Positions 841-15,349 of a DNA stretch of 64,000 nucleotides are shown here, piece after piece. Below the pieces are notes generated by a model. It saw only the letters and a program-made list of their open reading frames with translations, was not told where the DNA came from and ran no database searches. The translations under genes and the position numbers were made by a program. The stretch comes from Nitrospira defluvii. GTDB taxonomy: Bacteria; Nitrospirota; Nitrospiria; Nitrospirales; Nitrospiraceae. The stretch is from contig FP929003.1 of the NCBI GenBank assembly GCA_000196815.1, positions 930,001-994,000 on the forward strand. Reading direction: 5' to 3'. How positions within the stretch are numbered: position 1 is the first letter of the stretch; the number at the start of each line of letters is the position of its first letter.

Positions 841-2592
841 ATGAGCGACCATCGAAATCCGGATCAGCCAGAGTCGGGCGGGCAACAGTCGCCGCGCCGT
901 GAGGCCTCTGCCTCGTCTGATCCGATCGAACTGATAGAAGAATGTCTGGCGGCATTTCCGGACGGCGATCCGCGCCAGAAGCTGCTCTATAAATTGCGCC
1001 ATGTGGTGACGGCCCAGTCGGTTGCGAAGGACCGGCGCGACACCGAGTTGAAAAAACTCAACGAGGTGGTGGCCAAGTTGACGGCGCCCGCCAATCGAGT
1101 CGGTCTGCTGCTCGAAGTGCCAGCTGAAACTGTGGCTCGCATCGTCGTCGGAGGGGCGGAGTACTACGCCAACATCGACCCGCGTCTCCCGGTCGAGGAT
1201 CTGAAGATCGGCACGCAAATTCTGGTGAATGAGGCCTATACGGTGATCAAGGCCCTGGGATACGACCGCAACGGACCGGTGCTGAAGGTGGCCGAGGTGT
1301 TGCCGGATGGGCGCATTCGTTTCGAGCAGGATATGGGCCGGCAGGCGTTGATTCTGCAGCGGTCCAGCGATTTACTGGGGGTCGATCTCAAAGCCGGCGA
1401 CGAAGTCCGGATCGAGCCGACACACCGGATCGCCATCGAAAAGTTTGAAAATCGCCAGGCGAGGACGCACCTCCTCGATGAAGTGCCCAGTGTGACGTGG
1501 GAGCAAATCGGCGGGCAGCATCAGGCGATCGAAGCCATCCGGAAAGCCATCGAATATCCGCTGCTCCATGCCGACACGTTCACGAAATATCAATTCACGC
1601 AGCCGAAGGGCTTCCTGCTCTATGGACCGCCTGGTTGCGGTAAGACCTTGATCGGGCAGGCCGCAGCCGCCAGTCTGGCTCAGCTCGTCCGTGAATCACA
1701 GGGGCAGGCTGCTGCGGATGGCAAGTCGAAGAACCCGCCGGTCACGAGCGGCGCGTTCCTGCACATCAAGGGGCCGGAGATTTTGAACATGTGGCTGGGC
1801 GAATCCGAGCGGATCGTCCGCGACCTGTTTGCCAAGGCGCGCGCCAGACGGAAAGAGGGGGCCTTGCCGTTTATCTTCATCGACGAAGCCGAGTCCGTAT
1901 TGGGGACCAGGCGGTCGATGCGGTCGTTCAACATCAACAATACGCTGGTGCCGATGTTCTGCGCCGAAATGGACGGCATCGAGTCGCTGCAGGATGTGGT
2001 GATCATTCTGGCGTCCAACCGGCCGGATCTGATCGATCCGGCGGTCCTCAGGCCAGGTCGAATCGATCGAAAGATCAAGGTCGCGCGACCGAGTCGGGAG
2101 GCGGCCGTGGAGATTCTTGCGGTGTATCTCACGCCGTTGTTGCCGCTCGACCGCGAGTTGCTGGAGCGGAACGGACAGGACCATGAAGCCGCCCGCCGCG
2201 CCGTGATAGAGCAGGTGGTCGACAGTCTGTTCGCGCGGACCGATCAGAATCGCGTGTTATCCATTCGGCTTCGGAACGGCCAGAACAAGGTGCTGTATCG
2301 CGGCGATCTCGTCAGCGGTGCGATCCTCTCCTCGATCGTCCAGCGGGCGAAAGAGAAGGCGATCGAGCGGGTGGTGGCACAGGCCGGGGCGCCTGCCGGC
2401 GACGGGATCCGCGCGCAAGATCTGCTCGATGCCGTGCAGGAGGAGTATCGAGAAGGGGAAATGTTGCCGCCCGACGATGCGGCGGAAGAATGGTTGAAAC
2501 TGCTGGATCATCACCCGGAACAGGTCGTCGGCGTCTCGTCGTTTCGCCGCGGTCGGCCGACGGAAGAGCGATTGGTCAACCAGATCATCTGA
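841..2592 (+). CDS. arc: Proteasome-associated AAA+ ATPase ARC/Mpa
   Basis: Hexameric ring ATPase that recognises tagged proteins, unfolds them and feeds them into the 20S proteasome. The 583-residue product has an N-terminal stretch rich in charged residues that should form the tag-binding coiled coil (about 25-80), then OB-fold domains (about 80-215). The AAA+ domain follows, with Walker A GPPGCGKT near residue 262 and Walker B FIFIDEAES near 344. The ATG at 841 was chosen because GGAGG lies just upstream; an in-frame upstream start at 793 has no such site. The protein ends in VNQII, so it lacks the penultimate Tyr (GQYL in Mycobacterium) by which Mpa docks on the core. The dop gene starts 8 bases downstream. 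Confidence 0.95.
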   Translation: MSDHRNPDQPESGGQQSPRREASASSDPIELIEECLAAFPDGDPRQKLLYKLRHVVTAQSVAKDRRDTELKKLNEVVAKLTAPANRVGLLLEVPAETVARIVVGGAEYYANIDPRLPVEDLKIGTQILVNEAYTVIKALGYDRNGPVLKVAEVLPDGRIRFEQDMGRQALILQRSSDLLGVDLKAGDEVRIEPTHRIAIEKFENRQARTHLLDEVPSVTWEQIGGQHQAIEAIRKAIEYPLLHADTFTKYQFTQPKGFLLYGPPGCGKTLIGQAAAASLAQLVRESQGQAAADGKSKNPPVTSGAFLHIKGPEILNMWLGESERIVRDLFAKARARRKEGALPFIFIDEAESVLGTRRSMRSFNINNTLVPMFCAEMDGIESLQDVVIILASNRPDLIDPAVLRPGRIDRKIKVARPSREAAVEILAVYLTPLLPLDRELLERNGQDHEAARRAVIEQVVDSLFARTDQNRVLSIRLRNGQNKVLYRGDLVSGAILSSIVQRAKEKAIERVVAQAGAPAGDGIRAQDLLDAVQEEYREGEMLPPDDAAEEWLKLLDHHPEQVVGVSSFRRGRPTEERLVNQII

Positions 2593-2600
2593 CACGGCCT

Positions 2601-4121
2601 ATGCATCTCTTCGGCATTGAAACGGAATATGGCATCACCCGCGAGGATCTGGATGCCGTCGACCCCGTCGAGGAATCGATGGAACTGGTCCGTGCCCACT
2701 TGCCCGGCAAGTTTGAACGGCGCTGGGACTATCGAGGTGAAGATCCGCATGAGGACGCGCGCGGTTTCCGAGTCTCCGGTCTGCAACAGGACAAGGAGGA
2801 GGACGACTTCGCCAAGGTCGATGCGCATCGACCATTTTCGTTTCACGAGATGAAGAGCGATCTGGTCCTGCCGAACGGTGCGCGGTTTTACAACGACCAT
2901 ACGCATCCGGAATATTCCACTCCGGAATGTCGCACGCTCAAAGATGTGTTGGCGCATGATCGGGCCGGAGAGCGTATTGTGCAGAGGGCGGCGGATCGGC
3001 GGAATCAGCAACTCGGCGGCGCGCACGTCCAACTGTATAAAAATAACACCGACTTTCACGGCCACAGTTATGGCTGCCACGACAATTACCTGGTATCGCG
3101 TTCCCTGCCGTTTCCTCAGTTGGTCAGCGGCCTGTTGCCGTTTCTGGTGAGCCGGCAGTTGGTGGCCGGAGCCGGGAAGGTCGGGATGGAGGCGCAGGAG
3201 TCGGGTTACGTGCCGGGGCCATTTCAACTCTCACAACGGGCCGACTTCATGGAGGCTGAATTAGGCGTCGATACGATGCACAACCGGCCCATCCTGAATA
3301 CGCGAGATGAGCCCCATGCCGACCGAACTAAATACAGGCGCCTACATCTGATCCTCGGCGACGCGAACATGTGCGAATACGCGACTGCGCTCAAGGTCGG
3401 CACCACCAGGCTGGTGCTGGACATGCTCCAACGTGGGGCGGCTCCAAGCCTGGAATTGGAACAGCCGGTGGCCGCGATCAAGCAACTCTCCAGAGATCCT
3501 GACTTGAAGACAACGGTGCGATTGAAGGATGGCCGGACGATATCGGGACTGGCGATCCAAGAGGAATATTGGCACGCAGTGAGTCGATGCTGTGCGGGCA
3601 GTGATCCGGACGCCGACTGGGTGTTGCGGGAATGGCAGGAGACTCTCGGTGTGCTTCGTCAGGATCGCACGCAATTAGTCGGGAAGATCGACTGGGTGAC
3701 CAAGCAGTGGCTGCTTGAGACATTCGTGCGGGAAGAACGGCTGGCGTGGGAAGATCCATGGCTCGCCAGTTTGGACTTGGAATATCACAATGTGAACCCC
3801 GACCGTGGCCTGTATCTGGGGCTCGAAGCGGAAGGGAAGACCTGGCGCATGACGAGCGAGCGTGACATTGCGCAGGCCCTGGTGGCGGGCCCTTCCGATA
3901 CCAGGGGCGGGCTTCGCGGATTGTGTGTGAGACGGTTCCCGGAGCAGATCACGGGGATGCAATGGGAGCGGGTGCAGTTTGCCGGGGGGCTGCGTGCGCG
4001 GACGCTTGAGATGGGTGACCTCTTTGAGCCGGATGCGGTGCAGGCCTGCGCCGCGGTGTTGGAAGCTGCCGCGTCTCCAGCCGATGCGCTGGCGGCGTGG
4101 ACGAGACGAAAGGACGGGTAA
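2601..4121 (+). CDS. dop: Depupylase/deamidase Dop homologue
   Basis: Carboxylate-amine ligase-fold enzyme that in actinobacteria deamidates Pup-Gln and cleaves the isopeptide bond between tag and substrate. The 506-residue product starts MHLFGIETEYG, with the two Glu metal ligands of the family. It carries the longer N-terminal region typical of Dop (RWDY, DARGF) before NGARFYNDHTHPEYS, where the Asp of YNDH corresponds to the catalytic Asp. It also has YKNNTD, SQRAD, NTRDEPHAD and GDANM, all matching Dop better than PafA. The ATG at 2601 aligns with the family start; the upstream extension would run back into arc. No clear ribosome site is seen, so translation is probably coupled to arc. 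Its stop lies 2 bases before the tag gene. Confidence 0.93.
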   Translation: MHLFGIETEYGITREDLDAVDPVEESMELVRAHLPGKFERRWDYRGEDPHEDARGFRVSGLQQDKEEDDFAKVDAHRPFSFHEMKSDLVLPNGARFYNDHTHPEYSTPECRTLKDVLAHDRAGERIVQRAADRRNQQLGGAHVQLYKNNTDFHGHSYGCHDNYLVSRSLPFPQLVSGLLPFLVSRQLVAGAGKVGMEAQESGYVPGPFQLSQRADFMEAELGVDTMHNRPILNTRDEPHADRTKYRRLHLILGDANMCEYATALKVGTTRLVLDMLQRGAAPSLELEQPVAAIKQLSRDPDLKTTVRLKDGRTISGLAIQEEYWHAVSRCCAGSDPDADWVLREWQETLGVLRQDRTQLVGKIDWVTKQWLLETFVREERLAWEDPWLASLDLEYHNVNPDRGLYLGLEAEGKTWRMTSERDIAQALVAGPSDTRGGLRGLCVRRFPEQITGMQWERVQFAGGLRARTLEMGDLFEPDAVQACAAVLEAAASPADALAAWTRRKDG

Positions 4122-4123
4122 CC

Positions 4124-4318
4124 ATGCGATATATGTTGATGCCGGAACGTCGTGAGGCGCCGGGCGATCCCATGCCGAAACCGTCGGGGCCGTCGGAAGA
4201 AGGCGGAGGACCTCGGCGGCCTGAAACGGGCTCGCCGGACAAAGATAATTTGCTGAAGCGGATGCGGAAAGTCGATCCGAAGCAAGCGGAGCGCTATCGA
4301 CAACGAACAGGAGAGTAA
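4124..4318 (+). CDS. ubact: UBact-like ubiquitin-like protein modifier (Pup analogue)
   Basis: Small protein tag that would be ligated through its C-terminal Glu to substrate lysines and then recognised by the ARC ring. The 64-residue product is rich in Gly, Pro, Glu, Arg and Lys, and should be disordered in its N-terminal half. A short helix-prone stretch (DNLLKRMRKVDPKQAERY) follows, and the protein ends RYRQRTGE. Position between dop and prcB, size, disorder and the terminal Gly-Glu fit the UBact family described in Nitrospirae and other Gram-negatives; actinobacterial Pup ends GGQ or GGE. The ATG at 4124 follows an AGGACGGG site; a GTG at 4097 would overlap dop. A terminal Glu means no deamidation should be required. 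Assignment rests on context and the C-terminus. Confidence 0.88.
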   Translation: MRYMLMPERREAPGDPMPKPSGPSEEGGGPRRPETGSPDKDNLLKRMRKVDPKQAERYRQRTGE

Positions 4319-4375
4319 GGCGCGTTCGGGTACAGAGTCAGGCGTAAGGGGGTAGTTCATCGATCTGGCGGCCCG

Positions 4376-4401
4376 ACGCTTCACGTTTCACGCTTCACGA
4401 G
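4376..4401 (+). repeat. Short tandem TTCACG-type repeat upstream of prcB
   Basis: Three near-identical units (TTCACG, TTTCACGC, TTCACGA) lie in the 94-base gap between the tag gene and prcB, ending just before the prcB ribosome site. No function can be assigned. It could be a dispersed intergenic repeat or part of a leader structure. Confidence 0.45.
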
Positions 4402-4412
4402 GGGTTTGTGTA

Positions 4413-5186
4413 ATGGGGATGCAAGGGGACTTTTTTCAGCTCTTGAAGGAGCAGGGGTATCAGTTCGGGAATCCTGTTGCGGCGGCGGCCGGGATGGAAG
4501 TTCCCACTGCCACCACGATTCTGGCGTTGAAGTATCGCGACGGTGTGTTGGTCGCGGGCGATCGCCGGGCGACGGCAGGCAACATGGTGATGTACGACCG
4601 CACCGACAAGGTGCTGGAGATCGATCGCTACAGTGTGATGGCCATCGCAGGGGTGCCGGCGACGGCGTATGAAATGGTACGGGTGCTGGAGCATTCATTC
4701 AAATACTACCGGCGCACGCAATTGCAGGAGTTGAGTTTCGAGGGCAAACTGCGGGCGGTCTCCAAGTTGCTCAAAGAGAACGTGCCGGCGGCGTTGGCAG
4801 GGACCGGGGCCGTGGTTCCGGTCTTTGCCGGATATGACCACGAGCAGGAGTCTGCGAAGATTTATTTTTACGATATTCTGGGTGCGGAGTTTGAAGCCGT
4901 GGAGTATGCCGTGTCCGGTTCTGGCTCGCCGACGATTCGCGGTATCCTGCATTATGTAAACACATGGGGCCCGCAGCCCCTGGCGACCCTCCCTGAGGAG
5001 CAGGCCACGATCCAGGCGCTTCGGTTGCTGTCCAGTGCGGCGGAGTTCGATTCGGCCACGGGCGGGGTGAATCGGGAGCTGAATCTCTATCCGGTGGTAA
5101 AACTCATCAAGGCGTCCGGTGTGCAGACCATCCCGGATGCCGATTTGAAACGATTGCACGAGAGCGAAGTGCTGCGCGGACGCTGA
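4413..5186 (+). CDS. prcB: 20S proteasome beta subunit PrcB (catalytic)
   Basis: Forms the inner rings of the 20S core and carries the proteolytic sites. The 257-residue precursor has a propeptide of about 33 residues ending VPTA, then TTILALKY. The mature N-terminal Thr (Thr34) is the nucleophile. Counting from it, Asp17 (GDRRAT), Lys33 (RTDKV) and the later SGSGS segment keep the catalytic set of active beta subunits. The residue before the cleavage site is Ala, whereas Gly is usual. The ATG at 4413 is preceded by GAGGGG at good spacing. The gene lies 94 bases after the tag gene and 46 before prcA, the same order as in actinobacteria. Confidence 0.96.
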   Translation: MGMQGDFFQLLKEQGYQFGNPVAAAAGMEVPTATTILALKYRDGVLVAGDRRATAGNMVMYDRTDKVLEIDRYSVMAIAGVPATAYEMVRVLEHSFKYYRRTQLQELSFEGKLRAVSKLLKENVPAALAGTGAVVPVFAGYDHEQESAKIYFYDILGAEFEAVEYAVSGSGSPTIRGILHYVNTWGPQPLATLPEEQATIQALRLLSSAAEFDSATGGVNRELNLYPVVKLIKASGVQTIPDADLKRLHESEVLRGR

Positions 5187-5232
5187 CAGATAGACGGCTG
5201 GTTATTGACCCCTATGGTGAAGGTGGCACGTT

Positions 5233-6072
5233 ATGTATGAAGAACCCTATCGGTGGATCGAGGCGGTCGGCAATCGACGCCAGTATCTCGATGAACAGTT
5301 TGCGAAGGGCTCACCGGTCGTTGCGTTGGCCTATGCCGACGGGATACTGATGTTGACCGTCAGCCGCGGAACGCCCAAACTCTACGAGATTTACGATCGT
5401 ATTGCGCTGGGCGGAATGGGGCACCCGGCAGATCTGGAGAAGCTGCGTTTTTCCCTCCTGGAGATGGCCCATGTCGAGGGGTTCAACCGATCGCCCTCCG
5501 ATGTCACGGGCGCCAGGCTGATGAAGTATGGGCTGGCACCGACCATCAAGCAGGCCTTTGAAGAAATATATAAAGCGCCCTTCATCGCCAAAATTTTGCT
5601 TGCCGAATTGGGCGTGAAACCCGAGCGGGACCTGTTTCTGTCGATCAACTACGACGGAAATTTTGAGGAGAGCCTGGGCTGGGCGGCATTGGGGGCAACG
5701 TCTTCCGTGCAGGGCCGGATGCGACGCTATGTTGAATCGCAACCGGCGTTTGCGCAGGCCTCGCTGGCGCAGGCCGTGGAACTCGCCCTGTGCACCTGGG
5801 CAGTCGGCTCGTTGGCGCAAGCGGCGTCCGAGTCCCCGGCTGCGGAGTCTTCCTCACCCCGGGTATCGGACGAACAGACGGAAGGGGACGGGTCGAGTCT
5901 CCCTGACAAGGCGGCGCTGCTGGCGCATGTGCGTCAGACCGTTGCCGAGAAATCATTGGAATGTGTCCTACTGGAGCGCCGCGGGCCTGGATCGGCTAAA
6001 TATCGCGCGCTTCGTCCCGCTGAACTGGGCGGTCTGCTACCGCCGGCCGTCAGCGAACCGGCCGCCACATAA
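5233..6072 (+). CDS. prcA: 20S proteasome alpha subunit PrcA
   Basis: Forms the outer, non-catalytic rings that gate the proteasome core and receive the ATPase ring. The 279-residue product has SPVVALAYADGILML, the alpha-type equivalent of the beta N-terminal strand without a catalytic Thr, followed by KLYEIYDRIALGGMG and the DVTGARL segment, both typical of PrcA. It is longer than actinobacterial PrcA mainly because of a Ser/Glu-rich linker of about 40 residues (roughly 200-240) before the last strand. Start ATG at 5233 follows AAGGTGG. Its stop is one base before the pafA start, so the two are probably translationally coupled. Confidence 0.94.
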   Translation: MYEEPYRWIEAVGNRRQYLDEQFAKGSPVVALAYADGILMLTVSRGTPKLYEIYDRIALGGMGHPADLEKLRFSLLEMAHVEGFNRSPSDVTGARLMKYGLAPTIKQAFEEIYKAPFIAKILLAELGVKPERDLFLSINYDGNFEESLGWAALGATSSVQGRMRRYVESQPAFAQASLAQAVELALCTWAVGSLAQAASESPAAESSSPRVSDEQTEGDGSSLPDKAALLAHVRQTVAEKSLECVLLERRGPGSAKYRALRPAELGGLLPPAVSEPAAT

Positions 6073-6073
6073 C

Positions 6074-7564
6074 ATGCTGAACCGTATCTTCGGCCTTGAA
6101 ACGGAATACGGCCTCCTGGTGAACCAGGAGCGGCCCGACCATTCGCCCTCCTGGGTCGCGCAGCGGATTCGTGACCACATTTTTCAAGTCGAGCGGCAGG
6201 GAGTCCTCGACTTGCACCATCGTGGCCATGACGAGCCGCCCGGCAACGGGGGGTTTCTGACCAATGCGGGCCGCATCTACATCGACATGGGGCATCTGGA
6301 ATATGCGTCTCCGGAGTGCACGACCCTGGCGGATCTGGTGGCATCGGATCGTGCCGGAGATCGCATTATTCAAGATGCGGTGACGGCGCTGGGGCTCGAC
6401 GAGACGGTGTCGCTCATCAAGAACAATATCGATCACGAGACCGATGCGACATTCGGCTCGCATGAGAACTACCTCGTCACGCGACAATTTCCCTTTTCCC
6501 GTCGCGGCCTCGGTCCGCTGGTGACGTTTCTGGTCACCCGCCAGGTGTTCACAGGGTCCGGACGGATCGGCTGCGCGAGCGACCCCAACGAATGGGTGCA
6601 AGTCGGAGGACTCATCCTGCATCGGCCCGGCCTGCGGGATGCGCAGGATCGATCGATCGTGCCGTTCCAGATTTCTCAACGGGCCGACTACATCGTCAAC
6701 GACTTCTTCGAGTGGGTGCAACACAACCGTGCGATCGTCAATACACGCGACGAGCCGCTGGCCGATCCAAACCAATACCGCCGGATTCATCTCCTGTGCG
6801 GGGATTCGAATATGGCCGAATACGCCACGGCGCTCAAGATGGGGACTACCGGGCTGGTGCTGCAACTGATTGAGGCCGGTCAGGCCCCGCGCGGTCTGGG
6901 GATCCAGGAGCCGGTCGAGGCGCTGCAGGATATTTCTCGCGACCCGGATCGTCAATGGATCGTCCGCCTGGAGTCGGGACAGTCGATGTCTGCCGTCGAT
7001 ATTCAGGAGCAGTTTCTGGCCGCGGCCCAGCGCCATTGCAAGGGGCAGGACGAGGAGACGGATTGGGTGCTGGAGCAGTGGGAGTCTGTACTGACCGATT
7101 TGCGCGGCGGGTACGAGAAAGTGGTCGGACGGATCGATTGGGCCTCGAAGCTGTGGTTACTGGAGACCTATCGGGAGGCCGAGCGGTCTGCGTGGGACGA
7201 TCCCATGTTGAAGAGTCTCGACCTTGAGTATCACAACCTGCATCCTGAGCGGGGACTCTGCTACGGTCTCGAGGAGGAGGGGCGGGGGCCGCGCCTGACG
7301 ACCGATAAGATCGTTGCCCTCGCGCAGGTGCATCCGCCTCGCAACACACGGGCGTTCGGACGCGGTGAGTTGGTCAGGCATCTCCTCGAGAGCGGGGCGG
7401 CCGGAGTCGTGCCGGATGGGCCGCTCGATTTCGAGGAGCAGATGGCCTGTGAGTACATCATCAATTGGTCGAATTTTAAACTGCGTGGAACGGCGCCGTT
7501 TTTTATGGCGGACCCGTTCAAAACCTACGTGCAGGATGTGCGTAGCCACCTGGCCGCTCGATAG
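6074..7564 (+). CDS. pafA: Proteasome accessory factor PafA (tag ligase)
   Basis: ATP-dependent ligase that phosphorylates the C-terminal Glu of the tag and joins it to a substrate lysine. The 496-residue product begins MLNRIFGLETEYG with the Glu metal ligands. NAGRIYIDMGHLEYASPEC follows with the catalytic Asp, then IKNNID, SHENYLVTRQFPF, SQRADY, NTRDEPLAD and GDSNMAEYATALKMGTT. The shorter N-terminal region (no Dop-type insertion) and the C-terminal INWSNFKLRG...DPF block match PafA and separate it from the paralogous dop at 2601. Start ATG at 6074, one base after the prcA stop. It is the last gene of the locus; the next gene converges 8 bases away and no T-rich terminator is visible between them. 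Confidence 0.94.
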   Translation: MLNRIFGLETEYGLLVNQERPDHSPSWVAQRIRDHIFQVERQGVLDLHHRGHDEPPGNGGFLTNAGRIYIDMGHLEYASPECTTLADLVASDRAGDRIIQDAVTALGLDETVSLIKNNIDHETDATFGSHENYLVTRQFPFSRRGLGPLVTFLVTRQVFTGSGRIGCASDPNEWVQVGGLILHRPGLRDAQDRSIVPFQISQRADYIVNDFFEWVQHNRAIVNTRDEPLADPNQYRRIHLLCGDSNMAEYATALKMGTTGLVLQLIEAGQAPRGLGIQEPVEALQDISRDPDRQWIVRLESGQSMSAVDIQEQFLAAAQRHCKGQDEETDWVLEQWESVLTDLRGGYEKVVGRIDWASKLWLLETYREAERSAWDDPMLKSLDLEYHNLHPERGLCYGLEEEGRGPRLTTDKIVALAQVHPPRNTRAFGRGELVRHLLESGAAGVVPDGPLDFEEQMACEYIINWSNFKLRGTAPFFMADPFKTYVQDVRSHLAAR

Positions 7565-8888: not shown

Positions 8889-9574
8889 CGTGAGTATTCA
8901 GCCTGACCTATCGGGGACTGTGAGTAGCATACCTGCGGGGTCAAAGCAACCAACTCGGACCGATTCTCCGATGCCTGCTTTCTCGTCGAGCCGGCTTGCG
9001 CTGGGCCGCGATGTCGGTCACTGAGAAGGGGCGGCTCGGCGAGCCGATGCCCGTGGGCATGGCAAATTCTGCCGCGTGAAATTCCTTAATGGCTGTGGCT
9101 GTGAGGCGGAGATGAGCGTCTCGCCGGATCTGTGCGGGGCCGTTGCGCGAAGTGAGGAATCGGCGTCAGGATCATGACGGTCGTCATCGTTCTGACTTGC
9201 TGTGGTGTCTTTCGTGCGCCGAAAGGCATGACGAAGCGAGTCGTTCGGCCTGTTGCTATCATCTAAGTTAATTTTTGTAGGTAACTGCATTTTTTTCATG
9301 CGGATGAGTTGACAATTATGTCTAATTCCCTAGAATAAGCTTCGAACATTGGGTTGTTATGACAGCCGCTGTGTGCCAACTCTGAGGCCGTGCGTGTCGT
9401 TAATCCTTCCCTTGTTAGGCCAGCCGACCCCCTCCCGCATCTTTGGAATCGTTCGTGCGCTTGCAAGAGTCCAGCCTCGCCCGGAGCGAGCTCTGTGAGC
9501 GGGCGACGACGTCCACACGTTATCCAATTCGATGCTGTGCAACACGCAGCACTCAATACGGCGGGAGGGAATGT
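8889..9574. other. Long intergenic region between divergent genes
   Basis: About 690 bases between the lipoprotein gene (-) and the PilZ fusion gene (+). It holds a good + strand promoter at 9309-9336 and a weak - strand candidate near 8926-8953. The segment 8955-9300 shows only small hairpins. The 230-base leader after 9343 has no recognised riboswitch. An open frame of 93 codons on - (9018-9299) is not supported. Confidence 0.6.
9309..9336 (+). promoter_or_regulatory. Sigma-70-type promoter for the PilZ fusion gene
   Basis: TTGACA (9309-9314), a 16-base spacer and TAGAAT (9331-9336). Transcription would begin near 9343, leaving a leader of about 230 bases before the ATG at 9575. Confidence 0.65.
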
Positions 9575-12307
9575 ATGTCGAAGCACATCGCTACGCGCAA
9601 TGAGAGTGAGTCTGTGATCGGCCTGCTTGGCCAGGAGACCGGGCGGCAATCTTCGGTGACGGACCGGAAGAAAACCAGCGATGCCTGGTCGCTCTCTGTG
9701 GCGGAACGGCGGGCTTCCCGGCGCCTCGATACTCGCATCTCGACCCTCCTTCACTTTCAGGATCATGCGTGGAGAGGTCAGACGAAAAGCCTGAGCGTAG
9801 GCGGGCTCTCGATGGAATTTGCCGAGGACATTCCCGCCATGTTGAATCAGCAGATTGTGTTCAGTCTGAAGCCCGGGACCGAGCAGCCGGACAGTGCGGG
9901 GATTGTGTGCGGGATCCGCGTCTCCGAAAGTGTTCTTGATTCAGGTCGGACCAAAAGAGGGGTGATACTCGCCGTTCAGTTTGTGCGGTTGAGTCCAGGC
10001 GATGAGCAGGTGGTCGCCATGTGGATGAGCGAAGGCCGCGCACGGCCGAAAGGGCTGCATCTCGTCGCCGCATTAATCGCCCAGGAGAGTGAGGAGGCCC
10101 TTATCGACACCGAGGCCCGGCAGCCGGTCGTTTCCCAGACCGCGCGCCCGCGCGTAGCCCGGGTGCCTGAGTGTCCGCGGCAGGAGCGGCGGCGTCATCA
10201 GCGGATCACGGTGGGATTGAGCACTGAGGTCAGCCTCCGGCTGGGAGGCGGTGGTCGGGTGTTGCCGGGGGCGTTGACGACGGATTTGACGTCAAACGGG
10301 GCTTGTGTGTGTCTGTCGGCCGAGGAGGATTTGCTGGGTTCAGAGTTGGAACTGAGATGGGTATCACCGAGTGTCGCCCAGCGAGTGTCTTCTGCTTCCA
10401 TGCCGTTTGTCGGCTGCTCCGTGGTGGGCGAAGTGGTATGGACAAGACCGGGAGAGGCCGGTGCTCTTTCCGGTTATCGGCAGGTTGGTGGGCGGACGGT
10501 GTTGGCGGGTGTGCGATTTCTCCCGGTTGCAAAAGAGGCAGAGGATATCATCGAGCACCTGCTCGGGCAGCAGCAGGGCGAGGGTGTCGCGGCCAGGGCG
10601 GAAGGGCCTTCCGTCATCAGTGAGTTCTCGGAGTGTGTCCGCCCGTCCGGTCACCGTATCGCGCTCTGTCACGATCGGCCTCGAACCGATCTGTCGGACG
10701 ATGCACCGATTGTGGTGTTGGCTCCAGGGTATGGGGAGAGCAAACGCGATTATGTGCCGTTGGCCTATTACCTGGCCGGTAATGGGTTTCATGTCGTGCG
10801 CTTCGACAATGTGAATCATGTCGGAGAGAGCGATGGATTGGTGACGCAGTTTCGCCTGGAGGATATGGAGACCGATCTGGAGACCGTGCTGGACTATGTG
10901 GCTGCTCAATGGCCGGGCCGATCCATCGGCCTTGTCGCGACCAGCCTGGCCGGTCGCGTCGCGCTCAAGGTTGCGGGGCGAGTTCCTCACTTGGGGCTGC
11001 TGGCGCTGATCAATGGAATCATGGATGTTCAGCATACGTTGCAGGCCGTCCATCAAGAGGATCTGATCGGCGAACATCTGGCCGGTGCGCGCAAAGGGGT
11101 GGTCAACATACTCGGCCTGACCATCGATGCGGATCGTTGGCTGGAGCATGCTGTTCAGGGAGGCTATGCCGACTTACGCAGCACCGAGCAGGACGCCGAG
11201 CGCCTCCATGCTCCCGTCGTGCTGTTTCATGCCGAGCAGGATGCATGGGTCGATCCGTCCTCCATCGAGGCCGTCGGCGCGGCGATGGGTGAGAATCTCC
11301 GCCACTCCTATGTGGTGCCGGGCGCTTTGCATCGACTGCAGGAGAGTCCCCGGAAAGCCCGCACCGTCTACCGCCAAATTGCCCTGTGCTGTCAGGAGGA
11401 GTTGTGGCCGGCAAGGTCGATGGCGCGGACGGTCGAACCATCGCATCGAGAAATCGGCGTACAGAACCGCGCGGAACGCGAACGCAGCAAGAAGCGTCGG
11501 CCGATGGGCAAGTCGGATCATGTGGCGTTCTGGCAGGAGTACTTACATAATTTCCAGACAATCCCGAATGTGGCCGATTTTTGGCGGCTCATGGATCATG
11601 TCTATCGCCTGATGGGCGACTGCCATCACGGGGAACGGATTCTGGATGCCGGGTGCGGCAACGGGAATCTCGGTGTGTTCCTGCAGCTCAATCAGGCGTT
11701 TCGCCAGCGCTATGCCCGGCGCGGAGATTTTCGCTCGCCCGACTATGTCGGGGTGGATTTTGTCCCGACGGCGCTGGCACAGGCCATGACCAACTTCGAA
11801 CAGGTGGGGGCGGCGCTACAGGGACAGTTTTATGAAGGGCTGCGAGCCTATGTGCCGATGTCGATGCGGGTCTGCCGGGCCGACCTGGAGTCGCCGCTGC
11901 CGTTTCCCGATCGTTCCTTCGACCGGGTCGTGTGCAATCTTGTGATCGGGTATGTGCGCGACCCGCTGTTCACGCTTCGGGAATATCTGCGTGTGTTGGC
12001 GCCCAATGGACGGTTGGTGATTTCCAACCTGAAGCCGTATGCCGATCTCTCGGCGATTTATCGCAGCTTCGTGGAGACGGCTCAGACGCCGGACCAAATC
12101 GAAGAAGGGCGTCGCCTCCTGGACAATTCTGGTAGAATCAAAGAGCGGGAAGGCGAAGGCATTTTTCATTTCCAGTACCAGGCGGAACTGGAAGGTCTGT
12201 TACGCGCCGCCGGCGTCACGCATCCGCGGGTCTATTCCACGTTCGGAAACCAAGCACTCATTGCCGTGGCCGATAAGGGCCTGGCGAACCTTACGGTGGC
12301 GGCATGA
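9575..12307 (+). CDS. PilZ-PilZ-alpha/beta hydrolase-methyltransferase fusion protein
   Basis: A 910-residue multidomain protein. Residues about 44-165 form a first PilZ-like domain (RRASR, then SLSVGG where the usual Asp is Ser). Residues about 205-330 form a second PilZ domain (RRRHQR, then DLTSNG), the family that binds cyclic di-GMP. Residues about 345-610 are an alpha/beta hydrolase of acyl-thioesterase type: LAPGYGESKRDY, nucleophile in ATSLAGR, acid in HAEQDAWVD, His in GALHR. Residues about 660-890 are a SAM-dependent methyltransferase with ILDAGCGNGNLGVF. No signal peptide is seen, so it is cytosolic. The ATG at 9575 was chosen because GGGAGG lies upstream; the open frame extends further but without a site. 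A sensor kinase gene follows after 33 bases. Domain calls are motif-based; substrate and product are unknown. Confidence 0.88.
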   Translation: MSKHIATRNESESVIGLLGQETGRQSSVTDRKKTSDAWSLSVAERRASRRLDTRISTLLHFQDHAWRGQTKSLSVGGLSMEFAEDIPAMLNQQIVFSLKPGTEQPDSAGIVCGIRVSESVLDSGRTKRGVILAVQFVRLSPGDEQVVAMWMSEGRARPKGLHLVAALIAQESEEALIDTEARQPVVSQTARPRVARVPECPRQERRRHQRITVGLSTEVSLRLGGGGRVLPGALTTDLTSNGACVCLSAEEDLLGSELELRWVSPSVAQRVSSASMPFVGCSVVGEVVWTRPGEAGALSGYRQVGGRTVLAGVRFLPVAKEAEDIIEHLLGQQQGEGVAARAEGPSVISEFSECVRPSGHRIALCHDRPRTDLSDDAPIVVLAPGYGESKRDYVPLAYYLAGNGFHVVRFDNVNHVGESDGLVTQFRLEDMETDLETVLDYVAAQWPGRSIGLVATSLAGRVALKVAGRVPHLGLLALINGIMDVQHTLQAVHQEDLIGEHLAGARKGVVNILGLTIDADRWLEHAVQGGYADLRSTEQDAERLHAPVVLFHAEQDAWVDPSSIEAVGAAMGENLRHSYVVPGALHRLQESPRKARTVYRQIALCCQEELWPARSMARTVEPSHREIGVQNRAERERSKKRRPMGKSDHVAFWQEYLHNFQTIPNVADFWRLMDHVYRLMGDCHHGERILDAGCGNGNLGVFLQLNQAFRQRYARRGDFRSPDYVGVDFVPTALAQAMTNFEQVGAALQGQFYEGLRAYVPMSMRVCRADLESPLPFPDRSFDRVVCNLVIGYVRDPLFTLREYLRVLAPNGRLVISNLKPYADLSAIYRSFVETAQTPDQIEEGRRLLDNSGRIKEREGEGIFHFQYQAELEGLLRAAGVTHPRVYSTFGNQALIAVADKGLANLTVAA

Positions 12308-12340: not shown

Positions 12341-15300
12341 ATGAAAGTGCTCGCGTTCAGCGCCCTGGTGAATGCGTTGGCGGCGACAGGGCTCGGAATG
12401 TTCGTCTACTTCCGGGATCCTGCCGCCGCGCGCAACCGGATTTACGGGCTGTACTGTCTGAGCATTGCCTTTTGGAGCGTCTTCTACTGCGGCTGGCAGC
12501 TCACGGAATCCAAAGACCTTGCGCTGAGCCTGCTGCGCTTGGTGATGGCCGGCGCATCACTCATTCCGATTCTGTATTTTCACCACACCGTCACCTTTCT
12601 TGACATTACGGCGCGCCACGCCAAAGCCTTGAAGATCGGCTATGGTCTGGCGGCACTGTTTCTGCTGGCCGATACGACGCCCTGGTTCGTGGCTGGGGTG
12701 CACCCTGCGATGTCGTTCTCTTTTTGGCCGGTTCCCGGGCTCTTCTTCCATCCCTTCCTGCTGTATTTTCTCTGGTATGTCGTCTACGCGACCTCGCTCG
12801 TCGGGGTCGCCCTTCGGGATGCGAATGGCATCCGACGCCATCAATATGCGTACATGCTGGCCGCCAGCATCATCGGGTATGCGGGCGGGGCCACGAATTT
12901 CCCTCTCTGGTATGGCGTGCCGCTGTTGCCTTACGGCACGGTGCTCATCACGATGTATACGGCGTTGATGGCCTACACGATCGTTCGGTACCGGCTGATG
13001 AATATCAGTGTCGTCCTGAACAAGGGGCTCGGGTATGCCATCGTGCTGGCGATTATTGTCGTGGCGACGTCTATCGGTGCGGTGCTCAGTAATCGGGCGA
13101 CCGGACATTCCACCCCGCCGTTGCTGGCCGGAACGCTGTTTCTGATTTGCGCCTTATGGGTGCTCAGCAACAATCCCCGTTCCACGTCGAATACCATCTT
13201 CAGCGCCGTGTGTGGGGCCGCCTGCCTCTGGTTATTCGGCTGTTTCATGCTGTTTTCTGCGTCACGGGAGGATGAGGCGCTCTTTTGGGTTCAGGTGATT
13301 TACACCGGAGTGGTCTTTTTGCCTGCGTTGACCTATCACTTTGCGCAGAGTCTCTCCGGAGGGGCGGCGCATGACCGTCTGATTGTGTGGAACTATGCCG
13401 TCGGCGCGCTTTTTTGGAGCCTGTTGTTCACGCCGTATCTGGTTGATGGCCAGTATGTCTACTATTGGGGTCGATATCCCAAGGCCGGGGTGCTCCATCC
13501 CTGGCTGGTCGCATACGTGGTGGCGGGCGGGGGGGTGACGGTTTATCGGCTGTATCAAGGGTATCGGCTCCACCTCAGTTCCTCCCCGCTGCTTGGCGCC
13601 CAGCTGAAATACACGGTAGTGGCCCTCGCACTGGGATTCCTTGCCTCCCTCGATTTCCTCCAGAATTACGGCGTGGGATTCTATCCGGTCGGGTACTTGT
13701 TGGCCGGCCTCTCGGTCACCGTCGTGGCCTATGCCATCGCTCGATACGAGTTGATGGATGTCTCGTTCGTTCCGAGTCGGCCGAAGGTGATGTTGTCGAT
13801 CAAGTTGATGGGGCTGATTCCGGCCTACATGATGATTTTGTTGGTGATTCGGATCTTTACCGGGACGTTCCATTATCTTCTGGCCGGGGTGCTGTTCGGT
13901 TTATTTGTGATCGTGTCGAGCGGTTTGGCGAACCTTCAGAAGGGGGTTGAGCGGGCGATCGGGCAGACACTCTTTCGAGAGCGCTACGATGCCTACGATA
14001 CGTTGGTGCAGTTTTCGAAGTCCCTTGTGGCGATTCTTGAATTGAAATCCCTCACCAAAGAAATTGTGCAAACACTCGCGCGGGTGATGAACATTAAAAC
14101 GGCCTCCGTCTACGTGCTCGACAAGGAACAAGGGATCTACAGTTTGACCGCCTCTTACGGGTTCGTCACGCGTGAGGCCGTCGTGCCTCCGATTAAGATG
14201 GAGGGAGAGTTTCCCAAGACCTTGTTGCGAACAGAGACCGCCCTTGTCCGCGAGGAAATCGAATACGACAAGGCCGATACGGAACATCTGCGATTGCTCG
14301 ACACGCTGAAAGCGTTGGGGTCCGAGGTCTGCATTCCGCTGATCAGCAAGGATCGGCTGGTTGGTTTTTGCAACTTAGGGCGACGGGCCAATCATGGCAT
14401 GTATTCGACGGAAGAGTTGGCCCTCCTCAAGACGCTGGCGCAGCATGCGGCGATCGCAATCGACAACGCGCTCTTGTATGAAGATCTCCGCCGCTCACAA
14501 TTGTTGATGCGTCGTACCGACCGGTTACGATCGCTTGAAACTATGGCCGGCGGGTTTGCCCATGAGATTCGAAACCCGTTGACCTCCATCAAGACGTTCG
14601 TTCAGCTGGCCCCTGAACGCCGTGACGACGTCGAGTTTATGGAGCAGTTCAGCCAGGTGGTGTGTGAGGACGTTGAGCGGATTGAGCGGCTAGTGCACGA
14701 GATTCTGGACTACGCCCGTTATATGACGCCGAAGCTCACGCAGGAAAGCTTGAATGATGTGGTGTCTTCCTGCCTCTACTTTATCGAGGTGAAGGCGAGC
14801 AGCAAGGCCATCACGATTCAGAAAGAACTGGCGAGCGACCTGCCCTATGTGAGGCTGGACCGTCAGCAGATCAAGCAGGTGTTACTGAACTTATTTATCA
14901 ATGCGATGGAAGCCATCGGTGGCGACCAGGGCGGCCGCCTCTCCGTTCGCACCCGAAAACTTGTGAAGGCGGTGAATGAGCCGTGGGTTCAGATCGAAGT
15001 CGAAGATAGTGGGCCTGGAATCGACCCCCAGGATCTAGACCATATCTTCGATCCGTTCTATACCACGAAGCACGAAAGCGGGGAGCGTGAGGGGACCGGG
15101 CTCGGCTTGACCATCGCGCACCAGATCGTTCAGGAGCATGGGGGGTACGTTGAGGTAGCCAGTGAGGTGGGCCATGGTACGAGATTCATGGTTAACCTTC
15201 CCGTGAACCCACCTATCGCGGAGTGGCAGGCTGCGCAGCCTGCCTTCGATGACGGAAGAAAGCTTGCCGGAGCCTTTCTTGCCCGCCCTCACCTCGGGTT

Positions 15301-15349
15301 GGATGAACAGTTTGGCAAGCCGCCTGCGCCCATCAAAGCGACTCCCTGA
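12341..15349 (+). CDS. Sensor histidine kinase with two tandem 7TM-type modules and a GAF domain
   Basis: A 1002-residue membrane kinase. The N-terminal half contains two successive multi-helix modules of the seven-helix histidine-kinase sensor type (about 1-225 and 270-475). Both end in a similar motif, VRYRLMNISVV and ARYELMDVSFV, so the sensor has been duplicated. A GAF-like domain follows (about 545-705). The HisKA dimerisation domain has HEIRNPLTS with the phosphorylated His at about 741. A HATPase domain has the N-box LFINAMEAIG, DSGPGI and GTGLGL. No receiver domain is attached and no response regulator is adjacent. It lies 33 bases after the PilZ fusion gene, so the two are probably cotranscribed. 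The signal sensed is unknown. Confidence 0.9.
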   Translation: MKVLAFSALVNALAATGLGMFVYFRDPAAARNRIYGLYCLSIAFWSVFYCGWQLTESKDLALSLLRLVMAGASLIPILYFHHTVTFLDITARHAKALKIGYGLAALFLLADTTPWFVAGVHPAMSFSFWPVPGLFFHPFLLYFLWYVVYATSLVGVALRDANGIRRHQYAYMLAASIIGYAGGATNFPLWYGVPLLPYGTVLITMYTALMAYTIVRYRLMNISVVLNKGLGYAIVLAIIVVATSIGAVLSNRATGHSTPPLLAGTLFLICALWVLSNNPRSTSNTIFSAVCGAACLWLFGCFMLFSASREDEALFWVQVIYTGVVFLPALTYHFAQSLSGGAAHDRLIVWNYAVGALFWSLLFTPYLVDGQYVYYWGRYPKAGVLHPWLVAYVVAGGGVTVYRLYQGYRLHLSSSPLLGAQLKYTVVALALGFLASLDFLQNYGVGFYPVGYLLAGLSVTVVAYAIARYELMDVSFVPSRPKVMLSIKLMGLIPAYMMILLVIRIFTGTFHYLLAGVLFGLFVIVSSGLANLQKGVERAIGQTLFRERYDAYDTLVQFSKSLVAILELKSLTKEIVQTLARVMNIKTASVYVLDKEQGIYSLTASYGFVTREAVVPPIKMEGEFPKTLLRTETALVREEIEYDKADTEHLRLLDTLKALGSEVCIPLISKDRLVGFCNLGRRANHGMYSTEELALLKTLAQHAAIAIDNALLYEDLRRSQLLMRRTDRLRSLETMAGGFAHEIRNPLTSIKTFVQLAPERRDDVEFMEQFSQVVCEDVERIERLVHEILDYARYMTPKLTQESLNDVVSSCLYFIEVKASSKAITIQKELASDLPYVRLDRQQIKQVLLNLFINAMEAIGGDQGGRLSVRTRKLVKAVNEPWVQIEVEDSGPGIDPQDLDHIFDPFYTTKHESGEREGTGLGLTIAHQIVQEHGGYVEVASEVGHGTRFMVNLPVNPPIAEWQAAQPAFDDGRKLAGAFLARPHLGLDEQFGKPPAPIKATP

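Follow-up and report, generated by a model that had tools for sequence, protein, structure and literature searches.

A PilZ-LuxD-type hydrolase-methyltransferase protein and its adjacent 7TM histidine kinase: a possible two-gene acyl-signalling unit in Nitrospira

Gene and domain organization of the locus

The window, i.e., the whole 64,000-nucleotide stretch of Nitrospira defluvii DNA that we analysed, encodes on its forward strand a 910-aa protein (9575..12307) combining two PilZ domains, a LuxD-type alpha/beta hydrolase and a SAM methyltransferase. Its ATG start codon lies five bases downstream of a ribosome-binding site (GGGAGGG, 9563-9569) and the frame remains open to the stop codon at 12307, with no intervening stop or frameshift. 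The single four-domain chain proposed in a preliminary description of this DNA was thus confirmed, as the Pfam matches to PilZ, to the LuxD hydrolase family and to class I SAM methyltransferases each exceeded the curated cut-off. The structure models were poor, with PilZ1 alone fairly well modelled: the full chain reached a mean pLDDT of only 41.7 and the methyltransferase alone 38.8, both probably because the alignment used was shallow.

The hydrolase (residues 362-603; 10658..11383, forward strand) matched the LuxD family profile Acyl_transf_2 (PF02273; 3.2e-23, 82.9 bits against a cut-off of 20.3) and, with 5.5e-17, the Pfam profile Hydrolase_4. When aligned with the solved LuxD thioesterase structure 1THT (E 4e-17), all three residues of the catalytic triad found their counterparts: Ser457 (10943-10945) in the nucleophile region (IGLVATSLAGRVA in the window protein, IGLIAASLSARVA in 1THT), Asp556 (11240-11242) in the acid region (FHAEQDAWV and FTANNDDWV, respectively) and His586 (11330-11332) in the histidine region (GALHRLQES and GSSHDLGEN). 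The domain missed the cut-off of the LuxD equivalog NF052253 (83.8 against 420 bits), being a homologue and not LuxD itself. The methyltransferase (residues 684-834, within a conserved region spanning 646-905; 11624..12076, forward strand) bears the SAM-binding motif LDAGCGNG. It was detected by Methyltransf_31 (2.8e-14) and Methyltransf_11 (2.5e-13), and these two together with Methyltransf_23, 25 and 12 all exceeded their Pfam cut-offs. Its best named NCBIfam matches, the DVU_1556-type, ArsM and BioC, fell far under cut-off, and such profile matches do not tell whether this class I enzyme is a carboxyl methyltransferase. Both the triad and LDAGCGNG are unvarying across the genus alignment. 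The serine nucleophile elbow and GCGNG motif noticed initially are right.

In an operon-like linkage, only 34 bp separate the stop codon of this gene from the start of the next one (12341..15349, forward strand), which encodes a 1002-aa histidine kinase composed of two HisKA_7TM regions, a GAF domain, a HisKA domain (3.2e-12; phospho-acceptor motif FAHEIRNP) and HATPase_c (1e-27). It is the only HisKA_7TM protein of its own genome and its identity across aligned orthologues is 91-99%. The preliminary description had overlooked this linked 7TM kinase, which provides the decisive context. On the other side, the upstream region (2490-7564) contains genes resembling a proteasome cluster (Dop/PafA-like genes and proteasome subunits), as judged by eye only.

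Upstream of the four-domain gene we found a sigma-70-like promoter on the same strand (TTGACA-16-TAGAAT, 9309..9336) matching 11 of the 12 consensus positions and almost invariant in Nitrospira, according to an upstream alignment of eight loci. It would precede a leader of about 230 nt in which two non-coding blocks are strongly conserved (at about 9372-9404 and 9445-9488, within 9372..9490 of the forward strand). Both blocks are near-invariant in Nitrospira while the rest of the leader varies with indels, and the second is unique within the genome. They are possibly an operator or a small regulatory element. We rejected a structured RNA or riboswitch, as the leader had no Rfam match and no covariation and its folding was not clearly above that of shuffled sequences. 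The more distant relatives appear to use another type of promoter. A sigma-54 site with conserved -24/-12 elements (TGGCAT-N5-(T/A)TGC) occurs at -209 to -273 in all seven order-level relatives (L058, L059 and L085-L089) and in none of 23 control genes from the order-level loci. Two further loci have one closer to the gene (L047, perfect, at -31; L046, with one mismatch, at -87). No such site was found upstream of the window gene or in the other Nitrospira upstream regions.

Conservation of the enzyme core and variability of the PilZ domains

A relative with both hydrolase and methyltransferase was present in all 16 Nitrospira genomes sampled, most of them with an ORF identity of 74-94%. The enzyme half is the best-conserved part of the protein: mean identity to the window protein over 12 orthologues was 91.5% for the methyltransferase and 87.6% for the hydrolase, and 73% for PilZ2, 66% for PilZ1 and 48% for the linker between the two PilZ domains. 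One orthologue in a MAG contig (S0bin1_add; L042:5869-8732) is split into two ORFs, likely by an assembly frameshift. Relatives with an intact triad occur both within the genus and in further families of the phylum. The class-level relatives (L052-L054) show 27-29% identity and contain the methyltransferase, a second RxxxR-bearing region and a hydrolase-like region in which Ser and Asp align and His lies beside the expected column; the two of them scanned with Pfam both had a PilZ match. Beyond Nitrospirota, our search covered viral and plasmid collections and one genome-contig scan detecting close relatives only. A viral or plasmid origin was discarded, since no relative was found in the viral contigs and no plasmid match covered more than 39% of the hydrolase-methyltransferase query.

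The PilZ domains are more variable. In the window protein, the Pfam profile matched two stretches with a total of 60.7 bits (1.9e-16; cut-off 22.5), which singly reached 37.2 and 32.4 bits in a genome scan: PilZ1 at residues 44-148 (9704..10018, forward strand; E 1.1e-8) and PilZ2 at about residues 204-330 (10184..10564, forward strand; E 2.9e-7). The cyclic-di-GMP-binding motifs initially attributed to them are only partly canonical. RxxxR is present in both (RRRxxR in PilZ2) but, in place of (D/N)xSxxG, PilZ1 has SLSVGG, with Ser instead of Asp/Asn, and PilZ2 has DLTSNG, with Thr instead of Ser. It appears quite possible that these domains are structural, folding against the enzyme or aiding oligomerization without binding cyclic-di-GMP, a role compatible with any of the models discussed below. 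The defective second motif of PilZ1 would agree with this, as would the fact that, among the folded parts of the protein, conservation is lowest in the PilZ regions, that most of PilZ2 is absent in two species (G245 and G139; loci L044/L045), and that Pfam detected no PilZ domain in the seven order-level relatives (family f2). However, most orthologues retain the RxxxR arginines and a D-x-S/T-x-x-G motif in PilZ2 (DLSxNG in several of them), PilZ1 motifs are canonical in remoter relatives (DVSLSG in L017, NLSLGG in L019), and the genome encodes GGDEF proteins. The cyclic-di-GMP control proposed in the preliminary description is weakened by PilZ1 and by the order-level relatives, PilZ2 being near-canonical; these motifs hint at such a control, and binding by the window protein is uncertain. 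In the single-contig 4.3 Mb genome, 31 PilZ profile matches contrast with seven for GGDEF, so that possible readers of cyclic-di-GMP would largely outnumber its writers. PilZ copy number also varies among relatives, with three in L060 and one in family f17. Since the order-level relatives have no detectable PilZ, we consider these domains accessory: the constant core is the hydrolase-methyltransferase, and PilZ is a recurrent, variable add-on.

Catalytic state of the hydrolase and type of the adjacent kinase

We surveyed the downstream genes in more than 60 rows of relatives from the phylum, which include a few duplicates of one genome, and estimated hydrophobic segments by a simple hydropathy scan. 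Among the 36 rows with an intact triad (33 of them different in the tree), the next gene encodes a same-strand kinase with hydrophobic segments in all except L085, L046 and L047. The clear exception is L085, which has no kinase within 2.4 kb. In L046 the contig ends 297 bp downstream of the enzyme gene, but the enzyme stop codon overlaps a start codon as ATGA and the frame opened there resembles the start of the 7TM kinase. In L047 (genome G293), enzyme and kinase form a single 1641-aa ORF. We dropped this fusion as functional proof because the join follows a C9 run that shifts the frame with respect to the close relative L046, with its stop/start overlap, and is probably a frameshift. The gaps between the two genes are short and regular: most Nitrospira have 34 bp, four species have 25 bp, and L060 and family f17 have 4-5 bp, with 158-429 bp in family f2. 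Enzyme and kinase distances were strongly correlated (Mantel r 0.88, a value that none of 2000 permutations reached), which is expected when genes travel together.

A second set of copies has lost the nucleophile, and the kinase differs accordingly in type. In 26 copies with a kinase, Ser is replaced by Asp and the next gene encodes a soluble GAF kinase of 420-449 aa with no or one hydrophobic segment. Most of these proteins have about 1390-1490 aa (one has 1217 aa) and those that were scanned carry REC and PAS domains in front. Another locus, L062, also lacks the Ser; no adjacent kinase was found there. All the Ser-less copies form one group on the methyltransferase tree, so the loss of the triad and the soluble kinase amount to about one evolutionary event and not 26. 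That triad and membrane sensor were lost together is thus suggestive and does not constitute statistical proof. The genome of the window itself has one such 1400-aa paralogue (L043:8750-12952, reverse strand), with REC, PAS, two PilZ, a Ser-to-Asp hydrolase and a methyltransferase, followed by genes for a soluble GAF kinase, an NtrC-type regulator and a REC-HD protein; it looks like a pseudo-enzyme kept across Nitrospiraceae.

Other neighbouring genes complete this picture. Genes for an NtrC-type regulator and REC-HD proteins lie downstream in L060 and in the 1400-aa loci; the two REC-HD proteins that we read have the HD motif and a degenerate GYP motif (GNP and GHP). A separate REC-PAS-PilZ gene precedes the enzyme gene in L060, and the 1400-aa form consequently looks like a fusion of these two genes. 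L051 has no hydrolase: between its REC-PAS-PilZ-methyltransferase and its 7TM kinase sits a fusion of PilZ with a KASIII-type 3-oxoacyl-ACP synthase (L051:3933-5498, reverse strand) in which the catalytic Cys, His and Asn are apparent. In the three class-level loci (L052-L054) an acyl-CoA dehydrogenase gene lies upstream. Downstream of the enzyme gene of L052 come an HK-REC-HK gene and a REC-HK gene, and the second of these has the architecture that PhcR is reported to have (PMC8578825).

A possible acyl-signal synthase and its receptor

Nearly all triad-intact relatives are accompanied by a 7TM kinase, which points to signalling more than to plain metabolism, and this near-constant pairing with a membrane kinase, together with the acyl enzymes that substitute for the hydrolase or neighbour it, fits a synthase-receptor pair for an acyl signal. 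Our preferred reading, held tentatively and with a confidence somewhat short of even, is that the two genes form a signalling unit, in which one protein synthesizes an acyl signal (probably the methyl ester of a fatty acid) and the other is its membrane receptor kinase. The preliminary description proposed acyl release followed by methylation, which is reasonable; that the product is a methyl ester is more conjectural. We infer that the LuxD-type domain would act on acyl-ACP or acyl-CoA to free a medium or long acyl group. The methyltransferase domain would then use SAM to methylate the free carboxylate, and the resulting acyl signal would be small and hydrophobic, a fatty-acid methyl ester being the likeliest. 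This product may be detected by the adjacent kinase through its duplicated 7TM region, and the kinase would phosphorylate a response regulator, which would be of the NtrC type, plus REC-HD, where these are encoded alongside, and an unlinked one in the genome of the window. The PilZ domains would probably tune the synthesis by cyclic-di-GMP, that is, by the surface or biofilm state.

The main rival explanation is a cytosolic sensor module: by binding cyclic-di-GMP, acyl groups and SAM, its domains would regulate the kinase through direct contact, and no diffusible product would be needed. We judge it rather unlikely; nevertheless, it is serious because triad-less copies have been retained. Beside their kinase, the 1400-aa paralogues keep the full architecture with a dead triad, which indicates a non-catalytic role, at least there, and the tight coupling of enzyme and kinase genes would also be expected. 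However, in the window clade neither the triad nor the SAM motif varies and conservation is highest in the enzyme domains, and intact copies pair with membrane-embedded sensors that a purely cytosolic module would not need. An enzyme of metabolism or membrane lipids, which would make or recycle a methylated lipid under cyclic-di-GMP adjustment, with a merely co-regulated kinase sensing the membrane state, seems to us improbable. LuxD family enzymes do supply fatty acids, lipid enzymes (acyl-CoA dehydrogenase and KASIII) are found as neighbours, and HisKA_7TM kinases are also found elsewhere in the phylum without the enzyme (95 of 292 genomes, versus 63), but no lipid-synthesis operon surrounds the window gene and the near-constant kinase pairing and the NtrC and REC-HD genes of the relatives fit regulation better. 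Finally, a Lux-type aldehyde pathway and a defence system were discarded, the former having only a marginal LuxC-profile match elsewhere in the genome and the latter a sole PADLOC match, to the methyltransferase part of mads_2.

The synthase-receptor reading suggests an undescribed fatty-acid-ester signalling system. Its boldest version, a new Nitrospirota family of cell-cell signalling in which a PilZ-gated thioesterase-methyltransferase makes a fatty-acid methyl ester received by a dedicated double-7TM kinase, we regard as distinctly doubtful. In the open-licence literature we found no paper pairing PilZ with LuxD, nor PilZ, methyltransferase, hydrolase and histidine kinase in Nitrospira. 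Nitrospira species are major nitrite oxidizers, some of them complete ammonia oxidizers, and live in flocs and biofilms. If the preferred reading is true, the pair could let these cells sense one another, and a conserved synthase and receptor would offer a direct handle on their aggregation. A PilZ-gated synthase would likewise be a one-protein link from cyclic-di-GMP to an acyl signal, the biofilm state gating a population signal at the synthase itself. Because one phylum contains intact, dead and swapped versions, the link between enzyme and kinase can be tested.

Comparison with known systems

Several known systems share some of these features. LuxD, the myristoyl-ACP thioesterase of luminous bacteria, has a homologous domain with the same Ser-Asp-His triad, whereas the window domain is fused to PilZ and methyltransferase and has no LuxC or LuxE neighbours. 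BioC, the malonyl-ACP O-methyltransferase, is also a class I SAM enzyme, one that esterifies a carboxylate, but the match of the window methyltransferase to it is weak (3e-7; 30.5 bits against a cut-off of 185) and it is not a member of that family. In the DSF system (RpfF/RpfC/RpfG), a single cluster encodes a fatty-acid signal enzyme together with its sensor kinase and a regulator of the REC-HD type, and REC-HD genes also occur in the 1400-aa loci and L060. However, RpfF is a crotonase-fold enzyme, and the GYP motif of the HD proteins read here is degenerate.

Autoinducer synthase and sensor genes usually adjoin, as in CqsA/CqsS and LqsA/LqsS, where the synthase of an acyl-derived autoinducer is encoded beside a membrane histidine kinase receptor (PMC3376566). 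The synthases of those two systems are aminotransferase-related PLP enzymes and not hydrolase-methyltransferases. In Ralstonia, the methyltransferase PhcB produces methyl 3-hydroxymyristate, which is sensed by PhcS, a kinase encoded in the same operon (PMC8578825, PMC11960443). The resemblance extends to gene order: in the PhcB/PhcS/PhcR/PhcQ system a SAM methyltransferase gene lies directly 5' of a sensor kinase gene, with receiver-domain regulators next, and a methyltransferase gene beside a sensor histidine kinase gene is likewise found in the window and in nearly all the triad-intact relatives. There are also differences, since the window methyltransferase shares one chain with a LuxD-type hydrolase and PilZ domains, its kinase has HisKA_7TM and GAF regions, and the regulators in most of the relatives are NtrC and REC-HD proteins. 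Compared in this way, by description and with no claim of Phc family membership, PhcB/PhcS would be the nearest published analogue for the mode of action that we propose.
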